Assembly (NCBI GenBank): GCA_902779505.1
Contig: CACZBZ010000026.1
Location: 1 to 39,154, forward strand
Length of the DNA: 39,154 bases
DNA from: an uncultured Lachnospiraceae bacterium
Lineage (GTDB): Bacteria > Bacillota > Clostridia > Lachnospirales > Lachnospiraceae
Direction: 5' to 3'
Position 1 is the first letter of the stretch; the number at the start of each line of letters is the position of its first letter. The notes under the pieces are model-generated. The model did no database searches. It saw nothing but the letters and a program-made list of their open reading frames with translations, and was not told the DNA's origin. The translations under genes were made by a program, and so were the position numbers. Positions 6,455 to 30,906 of the stretch are shown in pieces.

Positions 6455-6471
6455 GGTCGATTTTTTCGACC
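6455..6471. repeat. Diverged GGTC...GACC palindrome upstream of ORF6N gene 1
   Basis: GGTCGA (6455-6460) and TCGACC (6466-6471) flank five T. It shares the 17-bp GGTC-N9-GACC frame with the palindromes tied to the two ORF6N genes but has a different inner sequence. Its centre is 53 bp, about five helical turns, from the cognate palindrome centred at 6516. Confidence 0.5.
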
Positions 6472-6504
6472 ACAAAAAACATCTTTGTTTGAATATAGAA
6501 TACA

Positions 6505-6527
6505 TGAAGTCACAATTTGTGACTTCA
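6505..6527. repeat. Upstream cognate palindrome of ORF6N gene 1
   Basis: A perfect 23-bp palindrome: arm TGAAGTCACAA (6505-6515), centre T at 6516, and the reverse-complement arm at 6517-6527. All 23 bases recur identically inside the gene at 6763-6785. The centre is 42 bp before ATG 6558, a natural operator or 5' UTR position. Confidence 0.85.
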
Positions 6528-6557
6528 AAAAAGAAAATGCAAAGGAATATAGTGTTT

Positions 6558-7481
6558 ATGAAAAATACAACAGACTTACTCACAGTTGAGTCTATTAGAA
6601 ACTGTGTATATACGATACGCGGACAACAGGTGATGCTTGACAGTGATTTGGCTGATATTTATGGATATGAGCTTAAAGCTATGAACCAACAGGTGAAAAG
6701 AAATATTGAGCGCTTTCCAGAAGATTTTATGTTTCAATTAACAAAAGATGAAGTTGAATTGGTGAAGTCACAATTTGTGACTTCACCAGAAAACACATTT
6801 TTTTCTGGACAAGGTGGAGGTCGTAGAAAATTTCCATATGCCTTTACAGAACAGGGCATTTATATGTTAGCAACGGTTCTAAAGGGTGAATTGGCCACTA
6901 AGCAGAGTATTTTTATAATGCGTGCTTTTAAGGAGATGCGTCACTTCATTGCTAATAATGCTCTAATGTTTGAGAAGATTAATGCTATCGAACTGAAGCA
7001 GTTGGAATATCAAAAAGATACAGATGAGAAGTTTGGCAGGATATTTGAGTATATGGCAAATCATGAGGAAGAAAATCAGAAGATTTTCTATGATGGTCAG
7101 ATTTTTGATGCCTTCAGTTTTCTTACAGATATTATCGGACATGCAAAGAAGGAAATTGTTTTAATAGATGGATATATTGATGTGATTACATTAAATATCC
7201 TTGCTAAGAAAAATGCGGGCGTTGATGTATTTGCATATACGTTGCCCAGTGCAAGAATATCTTCGCAGGATATTAATAATTTCAATGCACAGTATCCTAC
7301 ATTAACAATTAAGAAGACTATAGCTTTTCATGATCGGTTTTTGATTATAGATGGCGTGGAAGGCTATCATATCGGAGCTTCTTTGAAGGATGCAGGAAAG
7401 AAGTGTTTTGGGGTGAATAAGATAGAAGGTACGGATGTTGTTAAGGATATTATGAAGAAAGCACAACAGACAGGAACGTAA
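6558..7481 (+). CDS. ORF6N-domain protein with PLD-like C-terminal domain (module 1)
   Basis: A 307-residue protein. Residues about 8-110 form an ORF6N (KilA-N-related) DNA-binding domain: YTIRGQQVMLDSDLADIYGY, NQQVKRNIERFPEDFMFQLT and FPYAFTEQGIYMLATVLKGE. After a helical linker, the C-terminal part (about 180-300) has VLIDGYIDVITLNIL and FHDRFLIID (His 258), followed by YHIGASLKDAGKK, resembling a phospholipase-D-superfamily catalytic half-site. Biochemical function is unknown; DNA binding plus a possible nuclease or hydrolase is inferred. ATG 6558 fits the family N-terminus; an in-frame ATG at 6537 is an alternative, and the frame is open back to 6438. Codons 69-77 (VKSQFVTSP) coincide with a 29-bp perfect palindrome. 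The serine recombinase starts 20 bp downstream. Confidence 0.8.
   Translation: MKNTTDLLTVESIRNCVYTIRGQQVMLDSDLADIYGYELKAMNQQVKRNIERFPEDFMFQLTKDEVELVKSQFVTSPENTFFSGQGGGRRKFPYAFTEQGIYMLATVLKGELATKQSIFIMRAFKEMRHFIANNALMFEKINAIELKQLEYQKDTDEKFGRIFEYMANHEEENQKIFYDGQIFDAFSFLTDIIGHAKKEIVLIDGYIDVITLNILAKKNAGVDVFAYTLPSARISSQDINNFNAQYPTLTIKKTIAFHDRFLIIDGVEGYHIGASLKDAGKKCFGVNKIEGTDVVKDIMKKAQQTGT
6760..6788. repeat. Intragenic perfect palindrome in ORF6N gene 1
   Basis: A 29-bp perfect palindrome centred on T 6774: arm GGTGAAGTCACAA (6761-6773), its exact reverse complement at 6775-6787, and a T/A outer pair. It lies in the ORF6N domain codons for V-K-S-Q-F-V-T-S-P. The inner 23 bp equal the upstream palindrome at 6505-6527. 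Confidence 0.9.
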
Positions 7482-7501
7482 CATAGAAGGGATTGATTAA
7501 A

Positions 7502-9199
7502 TTGGGTAAGGATAAAACAAAAGTATATTTATATACCCGTGTTTCTACATCTATGCAGATAGATGGCTATTCGTTGGATGCACAGAAATCCAGAATGAAA
7601 GCTTTCTGCGAATTTAATGATTATGAAATCGCCGGAGAATATGAAGATGCAGGCAAGTCCGGTAAGTCCATTGAAGGGCGTGTCGCCTTCAACAACATGA
7701 TGGAAGATATCAAATCTGGAAAAGATGATGTCTCTTTTGTTCTTGTATTTAAGCTTTCCAGATTTGGCAGAAATGCGGCTGATGTTCTAAATTCACTTCA
7801 GATTATGCAGGACTTTGGCGTGAATTTAATCTGTGTAGAGGATGGAATTGATTCATCAAAAGAAGCAGGAAGACTTATGATTTCTGTACTGTCGGCAGTC
7901 GCTGAGATTGAGCGTGAAAACATACGTGTACAGACTATGGAAGGCCGTATGCAAAAGGCTAGAGAAGGTAAGTGGAATGGTGGCTTTGCTCCTTATGGAT
8001 ATGCCTTGGTTGATGGAAAGCTTGAAATAAATGAAGAGGAAGCTGTAGCTATCAGAACAATCTTTGACCAATATGTGAATACAGATATGGGGTCAAACGG
8101 AATCGCAAAATATTTGGAAAACCATGGGATTCATAAGATCGCAAGGCAGAATGGTAAGAACCCCTTGTTTGATGCATCCTTAATACGAAGAATAATTCAG
8201 AATCCGGTATACTGCGGTAAAATTGCTTATGGCAGGAGAAGAACAGAAAAGGTTCACGGAACAAGAAATGATTATCGCCAAGTCTATAAGGATGATTACC
8301 TGCTTGTAGATGGACTTCATGAAGCTTTGGTTTCTGAAGAAGTATGGGAACAGGCACAGATAAAAGTAGCAGCTCAGGCTAAAAAATATGAAAAAGTCAA
8401 TTCTCCTAAAGGTGAGAAAATACATCTTTTATCAGGTATATTAAGGTGTCCTGTCTGTGGTGCAGGCATGTATGGGAATAAAAGCATTAAGCATAGAAAA
8501 GATGGTACGAAGTACAGTGATTATTTCTACTATGGTTGCAAGCATCGTAATATGACCAGAGGGCATAAATGTGACTATCGAAAGCAGGTTTCAGAGACGA
8601 AGTTGGATGGTGCGGTAGTTGAAGTGCTTCGTAAGTTGGTGAGCAATAAGAGATTTGCCGGAATGATGCGTGAGAAAATCAATATGGAAGTTGATACCTC
8701 AGCACTTGATCAGGAAATAGCTGCTCAGGAAAAGACGCTACGCCAAAGTTACTTGAACAAGGATGCTATTCTTTCAGATTTGGACAACTTGGATTATGAA
8801 GATAAGCATTACAAGAGAAGAAAAGCAGATTTAGAGGATCGCCTCAGTAAGACTTATGATAAAATCGAAGAGACAGAAAATGCCTTAGTAGAGGCTAAAG
8901 CTAAGAAGCGGTCGATACTTGCTGAAAAGGTTTGCGGAGACAATATCTACAAAGCTTTAATCTTTTTTGACAAAATGTATGAGCCAATGAATGAAGCGGA
9001 ACGCAGAGAGTTCCTGACACAATTTATTGAAAAGGTTGAGATTTACGAAGAAGAACAAGAGAACGGCCAATGGCTTAAGTCCATTGAATTCAAGCTTCCT
9101 ATCATCTCAAAAGATATGAAGATTAGTTTGGACAATGGTTCGCAAATCGAAACCGTCGCTCAGTTGGTTAAACAAATGTCATCGCGAGCATCTCGTTGA
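7502..9199 (+). CDS. Large serine recombinase (integrase of the mobile element)
   Basis: A site-specific recombinase of about 565 residues. The N-terminal resolvase domain has YLYTRVSTSMQIDGYSLDAQ with the nucleophilic Ser in RVST, then FKLSRFGRNAADVLNSL and SAVAEIERENIRVQTMEGR. A recombinase domain follows (GGFAPYGYAL, LIRRIIQNPVYCGKIAYGRR), then a zinc ribbon (CPVCGAGMYGN and CKHRN..HKCDY), a coiled coil (about 400-480) and the C-terminus. Such enzymes integrate and excise elements by double-strand breaks with a 5'-phosphoserine intermediate. TTG 7502 is preferred, because GAAGGG (7486-7491) is 10 nt upstream; TTG 7493 would leave one base. It is the last gene of the element, next to the probable right attachment site. 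Confidence 0.92.
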   Translation: MGKDKTKVYLYTRVSTSMQIDGYSLDAQKSRMKAFCEFNDYEIAGEYEDAGKSGKSIEGRVAFNNMMEDIKSGKDDVSFVLVFKLSRFGRNAADVLNSLQIMQDFGVNLICVEDGIDSSKEAGRLMISVLSAVAEIERENIRVQTMEGRMQKAREGKWNGGFAPYGYALVDGKLEINEEEAVAIRTIFDQYVNTDMGSNGIAKYLENHGIHKIARQNGKNPLFDASLIRRIIQNPVYCGKIAYGRRRTEKVHGTRNDYRQVYKDDYLLVDGLHEALVSEEVWEQAQIKVAAQAKKYEKVNSPKGEKIHLLSGILRCPVCGAGMYGNKSIKHRKDGTKYSDYFYYGCKHRNMTRGHKCDYRKQVSETKLDGAVVEVLRKLVSNKRFAGMMREKINMEVDTSALDQEIAAQEKTLRQSYLNKDAILSDLDNLDYEDKHYKRRKADLEDRLSKTYDKIEETENALVEAKAKKRSILAEKVCGDNIYKALIFFDKMYEPMNEAERREFLTQFIEKVEIYEEEQENGQWLKSIEFKLPIISKDMKISLDNGSQIETVAQLVKQMSSRASR

Positions 9200-11225: not shown

Positions 11226-11435
11226 ATGGATATAGCTGGATCAATAAAAGACTTGAGAGAAAGAACAGGGATGTCACGTAAAGAGTTTTCAAATCATACG
11301 GGTATCCCTGTTCGCACATTGGAAGATTGGGAGGCAGGAAGAAGAACACCATCGGAGTATATTCCAAGGCTGATATCGTATCAGTTGAAATATGAGGAAC
11401 TGATAGGGAAGGATGACCAGGGTCAAAAAATTTGA
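11226..11435 (+). CDS. Small XRE-type regulator, ORF6N module 2
   Basis: A 69-residue protein that is almost entirely one helix-turn-helix: IKDLRERTGMSRKEFSNHTG, IPVRTLEDWEAGRRTPSEYI, then PRLISYQLKYEELIG. ATG 11226 has GAGGTG about 8 nt upstream; a longer frame opening at 11184 would run through the promoter and is rejected. Its stop codon (TGA, 11433-11435) lies inside the palindrome that precedes the following ORF6N gene, so the two genes are physically interlocked. A role as repressor of the module is inferred. Confidence 0.8.
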   Translation: MDIAGSIKDLRERTGMSRKEFSNHTGIPVRTLEDWEAGRRTPSEYIPRLISYQLKYEELIGKDDQGQKI

Positions 11436-11437
11436 CC
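11421..11437. repeat. Upstream cognate palindrome of ORF6N gene 2
   Basis: GGTCAAA (11421-11427) and TTTGACC (11431-11437) flank AAA. The 17 bases differ at one position from the core of the intragenic palindrome (11694-11710), and the similarity continues into the following CTCACGG. The centre is 36 bp before ATG 11465. Confidence 0.8.
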
Positions 11438-11464
11438 TCACGGAAACAGCTTAAGGAGAAATAC

Positions 11465-12478
11465 ATGAGTGAGAAGAAAGAAAACGCGCTTGTTCCGGTG
11501 GAGATTACGGTGGAAACGCTAAAAGCAAAGATTTATCTAATCCGTGGTCAGAAAGTTATGTTGGATGCTGATCTTGCGGAGATATACGGATACACGACAA
11601 AAGCTTTTAATCAGCAGGTCAGAAACAATATCGAGAAGTTTGATGAGGACTTTCGTTTTCAGATAACTAGGGAAGAACTTGACGAATTGGTGAGGTCAAA
11701 AATTTTGACCTCACGGGAAGAGACACTATTCCGTGGACAATCAGGTGGTACGAGGTACCTGCCCTGGTGTTTTACTGAAAGCGGTGTATATATGCTCATG
11801 ACCGTCCTTAAGGGAGAACTTGCTGTCCGTCAGAGCAAGGCATTAATCCGGACATTCAAAGCAATGATGGATTATATTGAGCAGGATCCTTTACTGACGG
11901 AATCTTCTAATATTGCGAAACTGTCTCTTCAGGTATCGGAGAATACAAAGGACATCAGTGAAATTAAAGAAAATATGGTCACAAAGGATGATCTGACGAA
12001 GGTCATCAGGAGTTTTTCATTACCGGATAAAGGCATGGAATATGTGATCTACGCTGGGCAGACATTTGAGGCTGATGTAGCATACGCGGATATTTACAGC
12101 AAAGCGAAGAAGAAGTTGTACATAGTGGATAACTATATCGGACCGAAAACCCTGCTGATGCTGAAAAGTGTGCCTTCAAATGTGGATGTTATCATTTTCA
12201 GCGATAACCTGAGAAATATTCTTCGTCTGTCAGAATTTCAAGCATTTCGGGCGGAGTATCCGAATGTAAAGCTAACGTTCCGGAAAACCGACGGGAAGTT
12301 CCATGACAGGTATATCATCATCGACTATAGGTGCCGGACGGAGAAGATATATCACTGCGGCGCATCCTCAAAGGATGCAGGAAACAAGATTACAACCATA
12401 GCACAGGCTGACAACAGGAAATTGTATTATCCTATGATCGAGGCACTGCTTATGCAGCCTGTATTAAACTTACGATGA
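11465..12478 (+). CDS. ORF6N-domain protein with PLD-like C-terminal domain (module 2)
   Basis: A 337-residue paralogue of the protein at 6558-7481. The ORF6N domain (about 10-115) has YLIRGQKVMLDADLAEIYGY, NQQVRNNIEKFDEDFRFQIT and LPWCFTESGVYMLMTVLKGE. A helical linker carries SLQVSENTKDISEIKENM. The C-terminal domain has LYIVDNYIGPKTLLML and FHDRYIIID (His 280), then YHCGASSKDAGNK, again a PLD-like half-site. Function is unknown; sequence-specific DNA binding joined to a possible phosphodiesterase is inferred. ATG 11465 has AAGGAG (11453-11458) upstream. Codons 76-83 (VRSKILTS) form a 25-bp perfect palindrome that differs from that of module 1 by paired substitutions. Unlike module 1, no recombinase follows. 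Confidence 0.82.
   Translation: MSEKKENALVPVEITVETLKAKIYLIRGQKVMLDADLAEIYGYTTKAFNQQVRNNIEKFDEDFRFQITREELDELVRSKILTSREETLFRGQSGGTRYLPWCFTESGVYMLMTVLKGELAVRQSKALIRTFKAMMDYIEQDPLLTESSNIAKLSLQVSENTKDISEIKENMVTKDDLTKVIRSFSLPDKGMEYVIYAGQTFEADVAYADIYSKAKKKLYIVDNYIGPKTLLMLKSVPSNVDVIIFSDNLRNILRLSEFQAFRAEYPNVKLTFRKTDGKFHDRYIIIDYRCRTEKIYHCGASSKDAGNKITTIAQADNRKLYYPMIEALLMQPVLNLR
11690..11714. repeat. Intragenic perfect palindrome in ORF6N gene 2
   Basis: A 25-bp perfect palindrome centred on A 11702: arm GTGAGGTCAAAA (11690-11701) and its exact reverse complement (11703-11714). It occupies the same protein position as the palindrome in gene 1. Relative to gene 1, A/G and C/A changes in the left arm are mirrored by T/C and G/T changes in the right arm. 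Confidence 0.9.
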
Positions 12479-18965: not shown

Positions 18966-20255
18966 ATGAAGAAGGTATTGGCAACACTTTTAGCAGGGGC
19001 TTTAGCAGCAAGTATGCTGATAGGATGTGGAGCTTCAGCCTCAACAGATTCATCAGCAGCTGCACCGGCAGCAGAGCCACAGGCACAGGAGACAGCTACT
19101 GAGGCTTCAGAACCTGTAGCTGCAGCAGCTGATGCGGCAGGCGATGTAACAATCTGGTACTACTGGGAGACAGCAGGACATCAGGAAGCACTTAATCACA
19201 TTATTGAAGAATTCAATAATCAGCAGGATAGTATTACGGTTCAGGCAAAGTATGTTCCTTTTGCTGATTTCAAGAAGCAGCTCTCAGTCGGAGCATCAGC
19301 AGGAGAACTTCCTGACATCGTTATTCTGGACAATCCCGATCACGCATCATATGCGGCAATGGGAATTTTCGCTGACATTACTGACAGATTTGATGTAAGC
19401 AATTATTTCCCGGGACCGGTTAATTCATGTACATTAGACGGAAGACTTTATGGTGTTCCTTTTGGAAGCAATGACCTTGTTCTTTTCTACAACGAAGACA
19501 TGCTTGCTGAGGCAGGATGTGAAGTTCCGACTACATGGGATGAGCTTTTGGATGTAGCTAAGAAGACAACAAAGGGTAATGTATACGGTTTTGCACACAG
19601 TGCACTTCAGAACGAAGAAGGAACATTCAACTTCCTTCCTTGGGTATGGTCAACAGGTCAGACATCTTACGAGATCGACTCTGAGGGCGGTATCAAGGCA
19701 ATGAACTTCATGAAAGAACTTGTTGACTCAGGAGCTTTCCCTAAGGAAGCAATCAACTGGACACAGGGTGATACAATGAATCAGTTCATTTCAGGTAACC
19801 TTGCAATGATGATCAACGGTACATGGCAGATTCCTACAATGAGACAGGAAGTGCCGGATATGCACTGGAACGTAGCAATGATCCCTCAGGACAAGCAGCA
19901 GGCATCAGGCCTTGGTGGTGAGAACTACGCTGTTATCGCAGGTGGCAATGAAGAAGCTGCAATCGCATTCCTTCAGTATGCAACCAGCAAGGATACATGT
20001 CTCTACATGATGGAAAAAATGGGCTATATCTCTTCTGATTCAACCATCGCCGCTAATCAGTTTGATGGCGATCCAGTATATCAGGTATTCGTAGATGAGA
20101 TGCAGTATGCTAATGCAAGAGGACCACTTCCTGAATGGCCTGATATTTCAGATGCTATTTCACTTGCATTCAACAAAGTTATCACTGGCGACAGCACTCC
20201 TGAAGATGCGGCAGCAGAGGCACAGGCCACAATTGACAGTATTATTGGAAACTAA
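18966..20255 (+). CDS. Sugar-binding lipoprotein of ABC transporter (SBP family 1)
   Basis: A 429-residue extracellular solute-binding protein. A lipoprotein signal peptide ends in the lipobox LIGC (Cys 21), followed by an Ala/Ser/Thr-rich linker. The mature part has WYYWETAGHQEALNHIIEEF, PDIVILDNPDHASYAAMGIF, FYNEDMLAEAGCEVPTTWDE and FISGNLAMMINGTWQIP, all typical of CUT1 oligosaccharide-binding proteins. It should capture sugars outside the membrane and pass them to the two permeases. The strong AAGGAGGT site and a following hairpin with T-run (20279-20311) fit the usual higher expression of binding protein relative to downstream enzymes. Confidence 0.93.
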   Translation: MKKVLATLLAGALAASMLIGCGASASTDSSAAAPAAEPQAQETATEASEPVAAAADAAGDVTIWYYWETAGHQEALNHIIEEFNNQQDSITVQAKYVPFADFKKQLSVGASAGELPDIVILDNPDHASYAAMGIFADITDRFDVSNYFPGPVNSCTLDGRLYGVPFGSNDLVLFYNEDMLAEAGCEVPTTWDELLDVAKKTTKGNVYGFAHSALQNEEGTFNFLPWVWSTGQTSYEIDSEGGIKAMNFMKELVDSGAFPKEAINWTQGDTMNQFISGNLAMMINGTWQIPTMRQEVPDMHWNVAMIPQDKQQASGLGGENYAVIAGGNEEAAIAFLQYATSKDTCLYMMEKMGYISSDSTIAANQFDGDPVYQVFVDEMQYANARGPLPEWPDISDAISLAFNKVITGDSTPEDAAAEAQATIDSIIGN

Positions 20256-30849: not shown

Positions 30850-30876
30850 GACAGTGCGTTTTATCGATGAAATAAA

Positions 30877-30906
30877 GGCTCAGACCAATTTGGTCTGAGC
30901 CTTTTT
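30877..30906 (+). terminator. Intrinsic terminator after the AlkD-like gene
   Basis: An 11-bp perfect stem, GGCTCAGACCA (30877-30887) with its reverse complement (30891-30901), an ATT loop and then TTTTT. It separates the MerR/AlkD transcript from the sulfur operon. Confidence 0.92.

Follow-up and report, generated by a model that had tools for sequence, protein, structure and literature searches.

Two ORF6N genes with internal and leader palindromes

The window analysed here, a 39,154-nt stretch of DNA from an uncultured Lachnospiraceae bacterium, contains two ORF6N genes on the plus strand. Gene 2 (11465..12478) encodes a protein of 337 aa with an ORF6N domain and a C-terminal region, and it matches both Pfam ORF6N (105.8 bits, cut-off 27.8) and PADLOC PDC-S05. 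Within the gene lies a perfect, odd-centred palindrome of 25 bp, GTGAGGTCAAAAATTTTGACCTCAC (11690..11714, centre 11702), which codes for V-R-S-K-I-L-T-S and is predicted to be an ORF6N binding site of the N41/Q37 type (family column numbers). A leader site of the same specificity type, GGTCAAAAAATTTGACC (11421..11437), has fully paired arms of 8, and its centre at 11429 lies 36 nt ahead of the ATG at 11465. The original prediction had described the internal palindrome and its leader near-copy, and both were borne out by the sequence. The codons of the putative recognition helix, T-K-A-F-N-Q-Q-V-R-N, were located at 11597..11626 (plus strand) by alignment to the gene 1 helix, with K33 at 11600-11602, Q37 at 11612-11614 and N41 at 11624-11626. 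A small HTH ORF (Pfam HTH_3; 11226..11435, plus strand) precedes gene 2; its 3' end overlaps the leader, and its stop codon falls within the leader site.

Gene 1 (6504..7481, plus strand) encodes 325 aa from the ATG at 6504, or 306 aa from the ATG at 6561, and matches Pfam ORF6N (PF10543) with 121.4 bits, above the curated cut-off of 27.8. Its internal palindrome is perfect over 29 bp (6760..6788, centre 6774), codes for V-K-S-Q-F-V-T-S and is of the R41/Q37 type. The leader palindrome, perfect over 23 bp (6505..6527, centre 6516), starts one base inside the in-frame ATG at 6504. Upstream of it, at 6455-6471, we observed GGTCGATTTTTTCGACC, whose arms correspond to a different specificity (A-T at pair 3, G-C at pair 4) and which is missing the usual core. 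The predicted recognition helix, residues 57-66 (6672..6701, plus strand), was placed from the code table described below and an AF2 model; K58 (6675-6677), Q62 (6687-6689) and R66 (6699-6701) are family columns 33, 37 and 41. A large serine recombinase gene (7493..9199, plus strand) lies 11 nt downstream of gene 1.

The AF2 model of gene 1 had a mean pLDDT of 85.9 and a full-length pTM of 0.50, which leaves the placement of the domains unsure. In the model, neighbouring helices span residues 46-53 and 57-66, and K58, A59, Q62 and R66 are located on the latter, the second helix of a putative HTH. The codons of the palindrome correspond to the end of helix 81-90 and to a loop with pLDDT <50. 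Foldseek with the ORF6N domain gave weak matches only (best Dachshund, E 0.1), and a PDB sequence search with the ORF6N domain profile returned no credible solved structure (best E about 1). The C-terminal end of the model has a PLD-like fold (Foldseek: NucT/PLD/TrmB). The PLD catalytic motif H-x-K-x4-D is absent from both proteins, which have H-x-R-x4-D in its place (H-D-R-F-L-I-I-D in gene 1, H-D-R-Y-I-I-I-D in gene 2), a replacement of Lys by Arg. The archaeal regulators TrmB and TrmBL2, which carry a PLD-like domain, ranked among the top structural matches for the gene 1 model (13-18% identity in the matches listed, TM-scores <0.41); they resemble the ORF6N protein, at the level of fold only, in joining a DNA-binding part to such a domain.

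The intragenic palindrome is a general feature of the ORF6N family

Homologues were taken from relatives, from the genomes of species across many phyla, archaea among them, and from viral contigs. From 274 domain hits, 18 partial ones were removed, and the remaining 256 were reduced to 189 genes by removal of domains that were >90% identical. As a null, the loop of each gene was recoded 400 times with synonymous codons. The best palindrome score averaged 10.3 in the observed genes compared to 3.8 after recoding, a score of >=10 was reached by 111 of the 189 genes compared to 0.135% of the recodings, and 118/189 genes exceeded all 400 of their recodings. Significance at 5% was not reached by 28/189 genes; in nine of these, of a class typified by RCKNFT and similar sequences, outer arms flank an AT core that is asymmetric, and in the rest the palindrome is interrupted or the gene is a distant member. 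The intragenic palindrome is therefore general to the ORF6N family, in bacterial, archaeal and phage genes. The covariation check proposed with the original prediction was passed across these 189 genes, with paired substitutions far above synonymous expectation.

A site was found in 185/189 genes, and its centre falls in one codon phase in 173 of the 185. With this phase, the second and third codon positions of either arm are paired to the third and second positions, respectively, of its counterpart. There were 111 distinct 19-mers among the sites, and the pairs switch four ways: pair 4 is A-T in 68, G-C in 53 and C-G in 34 rows, pair 5 is C-G in 119, G-C in 32 and T-A in 7, and pair 3 is C-G in 138 and A-T in 33. 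Two or three strict copies of the palindrome were present in 12/189 loops. Judged by peptide, the loops of L044, L052, L067, L088 and L089 hold two to four palindromic units.

The synonymous null and the compensated pairs support the proposal that the palindrome is itself under selection and that the peptide it encodes yields to it. Mismatches within the palindromes comprised 23 of the G-U type and 30 of the A-C type, showing no wobble tolerance. Since the compensated pairs lack the signature of G-U wobble, selection acts on the DNA and not on an mRNA hairpin. The original prediction had allowed for either DNA or RNA; the DNA part stands, and the mRNA hairpin was rejected on this count.

Residues of one helix track the base pairs of the site

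The codons of the recognition helix lie ~60-90 nt upstream of the palindrome in the same gene. A code table was built from the 171/189 genes with a site score >=6 in the common frame, and every protein column outside the loop was scanned against pair type. The idea linking R/N at column 41 to pair 3 arose from reading the sequences ahead of the scan. The five strongest column-pair associations were all on one helix, with normalised information of 0.99 for column 41 and pair 3, 0.89 and 0.68 for column 37 with pairs 4 and 5, 0.56 for column 33 and pair 7, and 0.52 for column 34 and pair 4. At pair 3, R41 went with C-G in 134 rows and N41 with A-T in 33, so that 167/167 resolved Watson-Crick rows fit. 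At pair 4, Q37 went with A-T (66 rows), E37 with G-C (51, and A-T in 1) and R/K37 with C-G (34), and R37 was combined with a C/T mismatch in 14 rows. R34 was present in 51/51 resolved G-C rows at pair 4, plus 3 A-T rows, and pair 7 was G-C in 106 rows with K33. The usual protein-DNA contacts are Arg-G, Asn-A and Gln-A, and the preferences of the code match them. Misses at pair 4 numbered 13/71 in the Bacillota set, 2/67 in the genome_contigs set and 0/28 in the viral set; the C/T mismatch that characterises the RCKNFT class accounted for most of them (15 rows).

The effect of lineage was assessed on a tree built from the C-terminal parts only of 136 genes. Supported independent contrasts were 9/9 for R/N at column 41 and 15/16 for Q/E at column 37, and further contrasts gave 9/9, 7/7, a mean of 10.8/11, and 9/11 for column 33. 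None were opposed, and p ranged from 0.016 to 6e-5. The helix-pair code thus recurs in independent lineages. Helix residue 37 requires at least 57 changes on this tree. On a domain tree from which helix and loop were omitted, nine changes each were counted for column 41 and pair 3; this domain-only tree yielded 1 to 5 supported contrasts per test, below significance, and none opposed on average.

Domains fetched after the code was fixed agreed with it in 15/17, 17/19 and 17/19 cases at pairs 3, 4 and 5, misses included. This later set came from 17 plasmid and phage records with 22 domain hits, of which 19 were scored and 3 without helix or loop were excluded; L421, which has no real palindrome, was retained in the score, and the records may include near-identical copies of earlier loci. 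In one of them, a Parabacteroides distasonis plasmid (L414, 1473-3222), three tandem ORF6N genes have different helices, a Q37 gene with a TCAC-type site and two R37 genes with TGCC-type sites. For the ORF6N gene on plasmid pCY186 of Butyrivibrio proteoclasticus B316, the leader agreed with the code at pairs 3-5, and the internal site did so at pairs 3 and 5.

Collectively, these associations make it very probable that the predicted recognition helix reads the palindrome of its own gene. Selection on the palindrome, as originally proposed, is supported, with a second correction besides that of DNA over RNA: the partner missed at that time is the gene's own predicted recognition helix. The arm substitutions between the two window genes are as claimed, aag/agg going with act/acc and caa/aaa with gtg/ttg. 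Gene 1 combines Q37/R41 with C-G at pair 3, and gene 2 combines Q37/N41 with A-T, so the change from K-S-Q-F-V to R-S-K-I-L includes a change of specificity that is predicted by the code.

Leader copies are optional and follow the code in part

The best palindrome upstream of the gene scored >=8 in 62/189 genes, compared to 16/945 shuffled upstream regions. A search with the family motif, blind to the code, identified 42 leader sites in 39/189 genes. These agreed with the helix code in 35/42 cases at pair 3, 33/42 at pair 5 and 21/42 at pair 4. Together, 89/126 leader pair positions fit the code, compared to a mean of 67 and a maximum of 83 in 2000 shuffles. A leader copy is therefore optional and follows the code partly. 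The claim that each leader tracks its own gene holds for genes 1 and 2 and to this extent for the family; in its strict form it fails, and was rejected across the family, at pair 4. Several of the leaders that do not match the code are perfect palindromes; such leaders may be relics, sites of weaker binding or targets of another paralogue.

Leader copies occur in all three frames or outside an open frame, with a spacing of 212 to 445 nt between leader and internal site. This spacing showed no 10.5-bp phasing (p about 0.54), and looping of the DNA between the two sites is thus unsupported. No promoter-like site stood out by either leader of the window (2 compared to 1.2 expected at one, 1 compared to 1.0 at the other).

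Sites are rare and concentrated at ORF6N genes

Scanning the 39-kb window with the family motif (full pairing over pairs 2-8, with A-T at pair 2 and T-A at pair 6) detected five sites, four belonging to genes 1 and 2 and a fifth, AT-rich, at 19210, compared to a mean of 0.36 in 50 mononucleotide shuffles. The longest perfect palindrome of the window is a different element, AAAGGCTCAGACCAATTTGGTCTGAGCCTTT (30874-30904), perhaps terminator-like. In the 2.22-Mb home genome (84% complete), an R/W/Y consensus with <=3 mismatches matched three sites, all at the two ORF6N genes, and the reversed-consensus control matched none; the gene 2 leader exceeds 3 mismatches and falls outside this count. A dispersed palindromic element (RPE/REP-like) was rejected on this distribution.

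Across 397 family genomes there were 68 consensus sites, 45 of them in or <=300 nt from an ORF6N domain and 7 within 1.8 kb, the count being based on the 54 ORF6N places needed for contigs with sites. The remaining 16/68 had no ORF6N within 1.8 kb, which implies that other targets or relics exist. Sites without a nearby ORF6N include those at L267, L278, L282, L285, L287 and L288; at L285 and at L288 the site forms the beginning of a short ORF, MRSQF(V/A)TSK, as if it were a leader without a gene.

Some Bro-N and DinD-like genes carry other palindromes

We also examined related domain families. Among Bro-N genes (L302, L306, L309-L311, L353-L372), 11/31 exceeded all 100 synonymous recodings, with other palindromes than those of ORF6N, as did 13/31 DinD-like genes (L312, L383-L410). 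The palindromes of both mostly occupy one constant position within the gene's codons, e.g. TGGTGACAAATTGTCACCA and TTTTGCTGAGGTCAGCAAAA. At pair 5 of Bro-N, a helix residue Q went with G-C (8/8), N/K with T-A (5/5) and R with C-G (4/4), and A, S and T were mixed; this association, from 28 usable rows of 45, was spotted by eye and then counted on the same data. The two Bro-N/DinD-like representatives scanned match PADLOC PDC-S13. The Rha family was rejected as a palindrome carrier, with 0/19 genes exceeding all 60 synonymous nulls; one of these genes scored 11.

Gene neighbourhood and defence labels

A large serine recombinase gene directly 3' of the ORF6N gene was found in 9/189 cases, gene 1 included; the others are L003, L040, L070, L098, L128, L140, L162 and L184. 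At L279, an extra consensus site apparently lies between the ORF6N and serine recombinase genes. With so few cases, an operon with the recombinase was rejected as an explanation. We also scanned 20 of 63 downstream ORFs, each the longest downstream on either strand. Three of the 20 were type I specificity subunits (Methylase_S), the others being varied or without a Pfam match, and one annotated subunit S was present in the 14 plasmid records examined. Embedding in type I R-M systems was rejected as the general context.

The products of genes 1 and 2 match PADLOC PDC-S05, a phage defence candidate, with E values of 1.2e-126 and 1.2e-103, and both match PHROG 'anti-repressor' families. A defence role for PDC-S05-matching proteins with a PLD-like fold may exist. 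As far as the available text of the source goes, most PDCs are without experimental validation (PMC12988326).

Discussion

From the site, its compensated evolution, the helix-pair code and the conservation of these features, we infer binding by a dimer, repression and a roadblock. The second helix of the putative ORF6N HTH would present the variable columns 33, 34, 37 and 41, which would contact pairs 3, 4, 5 and 7 of each half-site, and the dimer would read two half-sites about one DNA turn apart. The site sits in codons of a flexible loop in the same domain, and the protein would therefore tolerate the changes that the DNA requires. Because second codon positions face third positions across the palindrome, an amino-acid change encoded in one arm is often offset by a silent change in the opposite arm; only the first-position pairs (3, 6, 9, 12) are able to alter both residues together. 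Once bound, the dimer may act as a roadblock to RNA polymerase inside the gene and so exert negative autoregulation, the leader site joining the internal site in about a fifth of genes. As reader and site lie within about 120 bp, they could move or be swapped together, and the feedback would then accompany the mobile gene under any promoter. An operator built into the gene in this way would be of use to a single mobile gene whose neighbours vary.

Overall, we think that the ORF6N protein probably binds the palindrome within its own gene, most likely for negative autoregulation. That negative autoregulation is the purpose of the own-gene site is, as a separate claim, somewhat favoured. We likewise lean towards regarding ORF6N and part of the Bro-N/DinD-like genes as self-addressed, with a near-deterministic code and a reader/operator cassette of ~120 bp that would evolve, recombine and spread as one. 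Some of the data sit less easily with own-gene binding: the leaders ignore the code at pair 4, which is odd if the same protein reads them, 28 of the 189 genes fail the synonymous null at 5%, and 16 of the 68 genomic sites have no ORF6N nearby.

The protein could instead bind the internal site for another end, tethering or sequestering a defence effector on its own gene, or marking the gene for recombination or cassette exchange. The PDC-S05 matches, the PLD-like C-terminal fold and the minimum of 57 changes at residue 37 on the C-terminal tree would suit such uses; cassette exchange would leave leaders lagging behind the helix and internal site, as observed. We nevertheless regard this use as rather unlikely, since the leader copies of 39/189 genes occupy the usual place of an operator and the PLD motif has Arg where the catalytic Lys would be. 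Control of translation or decay by an mRNA stem is very improbable. A hairpin would result from the perfect arms, and the gene 1 leader, which starts inside an ATG, is also the one terminator-like match of the region (on the minus strand), but the mismatches show no excess of the G-U type and the paired bases follow residues of the predicted recognition helix, which is unexpected for an RNA stem.

Equally improbable is co-evolution at the protein level, in which the helix touches the loop and the palindrome is a by-product. The palindrome does code for loop residues (Q/K, V/A/G/L), and covariation within the protein would mimic that of the pairs. Such contact would, however, produce neither synonymous matches nor leader copies in any frame or outside an open frame, and the loop is disordered in the AF2 model. 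Moreover, whether a Ser codon ends in A or G (TCA/TCG), a silent difference, tracks the Q/E residue at column 37, 27 aa upstream, which is not predicted by contact between protein parts. The least probable explanation is a selfish palindromic element inserted in frame, as known from the Rickettsia palindromic elements. The 12 loops with two or three strict copies and the 16 orphan sites would fit such an element, but the three consensus sites of the home genome are all at the two ORF6N genes, one codon phase accounts for 173/185 genes, and the site matches the helix of each gene.

Parts of the arrangement that we favour, binding of the ORF6N protein to its own gene, have precedents. E. coli purR has a second operator in its coding region and hence both leader and intragenic operators on its own gene; to our knowledge, the intragenic operator of purR is not family-wide or co-evolving. 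A defined DNA site for ORF6N is not known to us and was not given in the sources consulted, and the labels Pfam ORF6N, PHROG 'anti-repressor' and PADLOC PDC-S05 name no binding site. According to the available portion of the source, C.Kpn2I binds a site within its own ORF and blocks the elongating RNA polymerase, and its authors consider that such cases are perhaps widespread (PMC6237814). By the helix-site code, ORF6N would likewise have its cognate site inside its own ORF. In contrast to ORF6N, C.Kpn2I is the C-protein of a type II R-M system and belongs to a different family, and its description, in the portion available, does not include co-evolution of palindrome and recognition helix. 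For the LacI family, amino-acid/base rules were derived from own-gene sites, with convergent events (PMC2978694). In the available part of that report, the LacI code comprises two residues and two bases at intergenic sites, whereas that of ORF6N comprises four residues and sites inside the codons of the DNA-binding domain. Judging from these partial sources, autoregulators with a site in their own gene and recognition codes drawn from the autoregulated sites of a family are each known already, separately. The part that is new to us is the family-wide co-evolution of an own-gene site with the recognition helix. Among the matches listed from the open-licence literature, no paper dealt with palindromes inside ORF6N or Bro-N genes, and the combination of a family-wide operator in DNA-binding-domain codons with helix co-evolution was not found there.

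In these genes, one stretch of DNA is selected both as protein code and as the predicted binding site of that protein, and the compensations are visible in many lineages. Proteins with ORF6N/Bro-N-type domains are encoded in phage and plasmid records and in many bacterial genomes, and some are listed as defence candidates. As every gene brings its site along, DNA specificity would be readable from sequence, which would make binding, regulation and the role of the PDC-S05/S13 candidates directly testable. If true, the code would reveal which DNA is recognised by many regulators and defence candidates that are so far uncharacterised.
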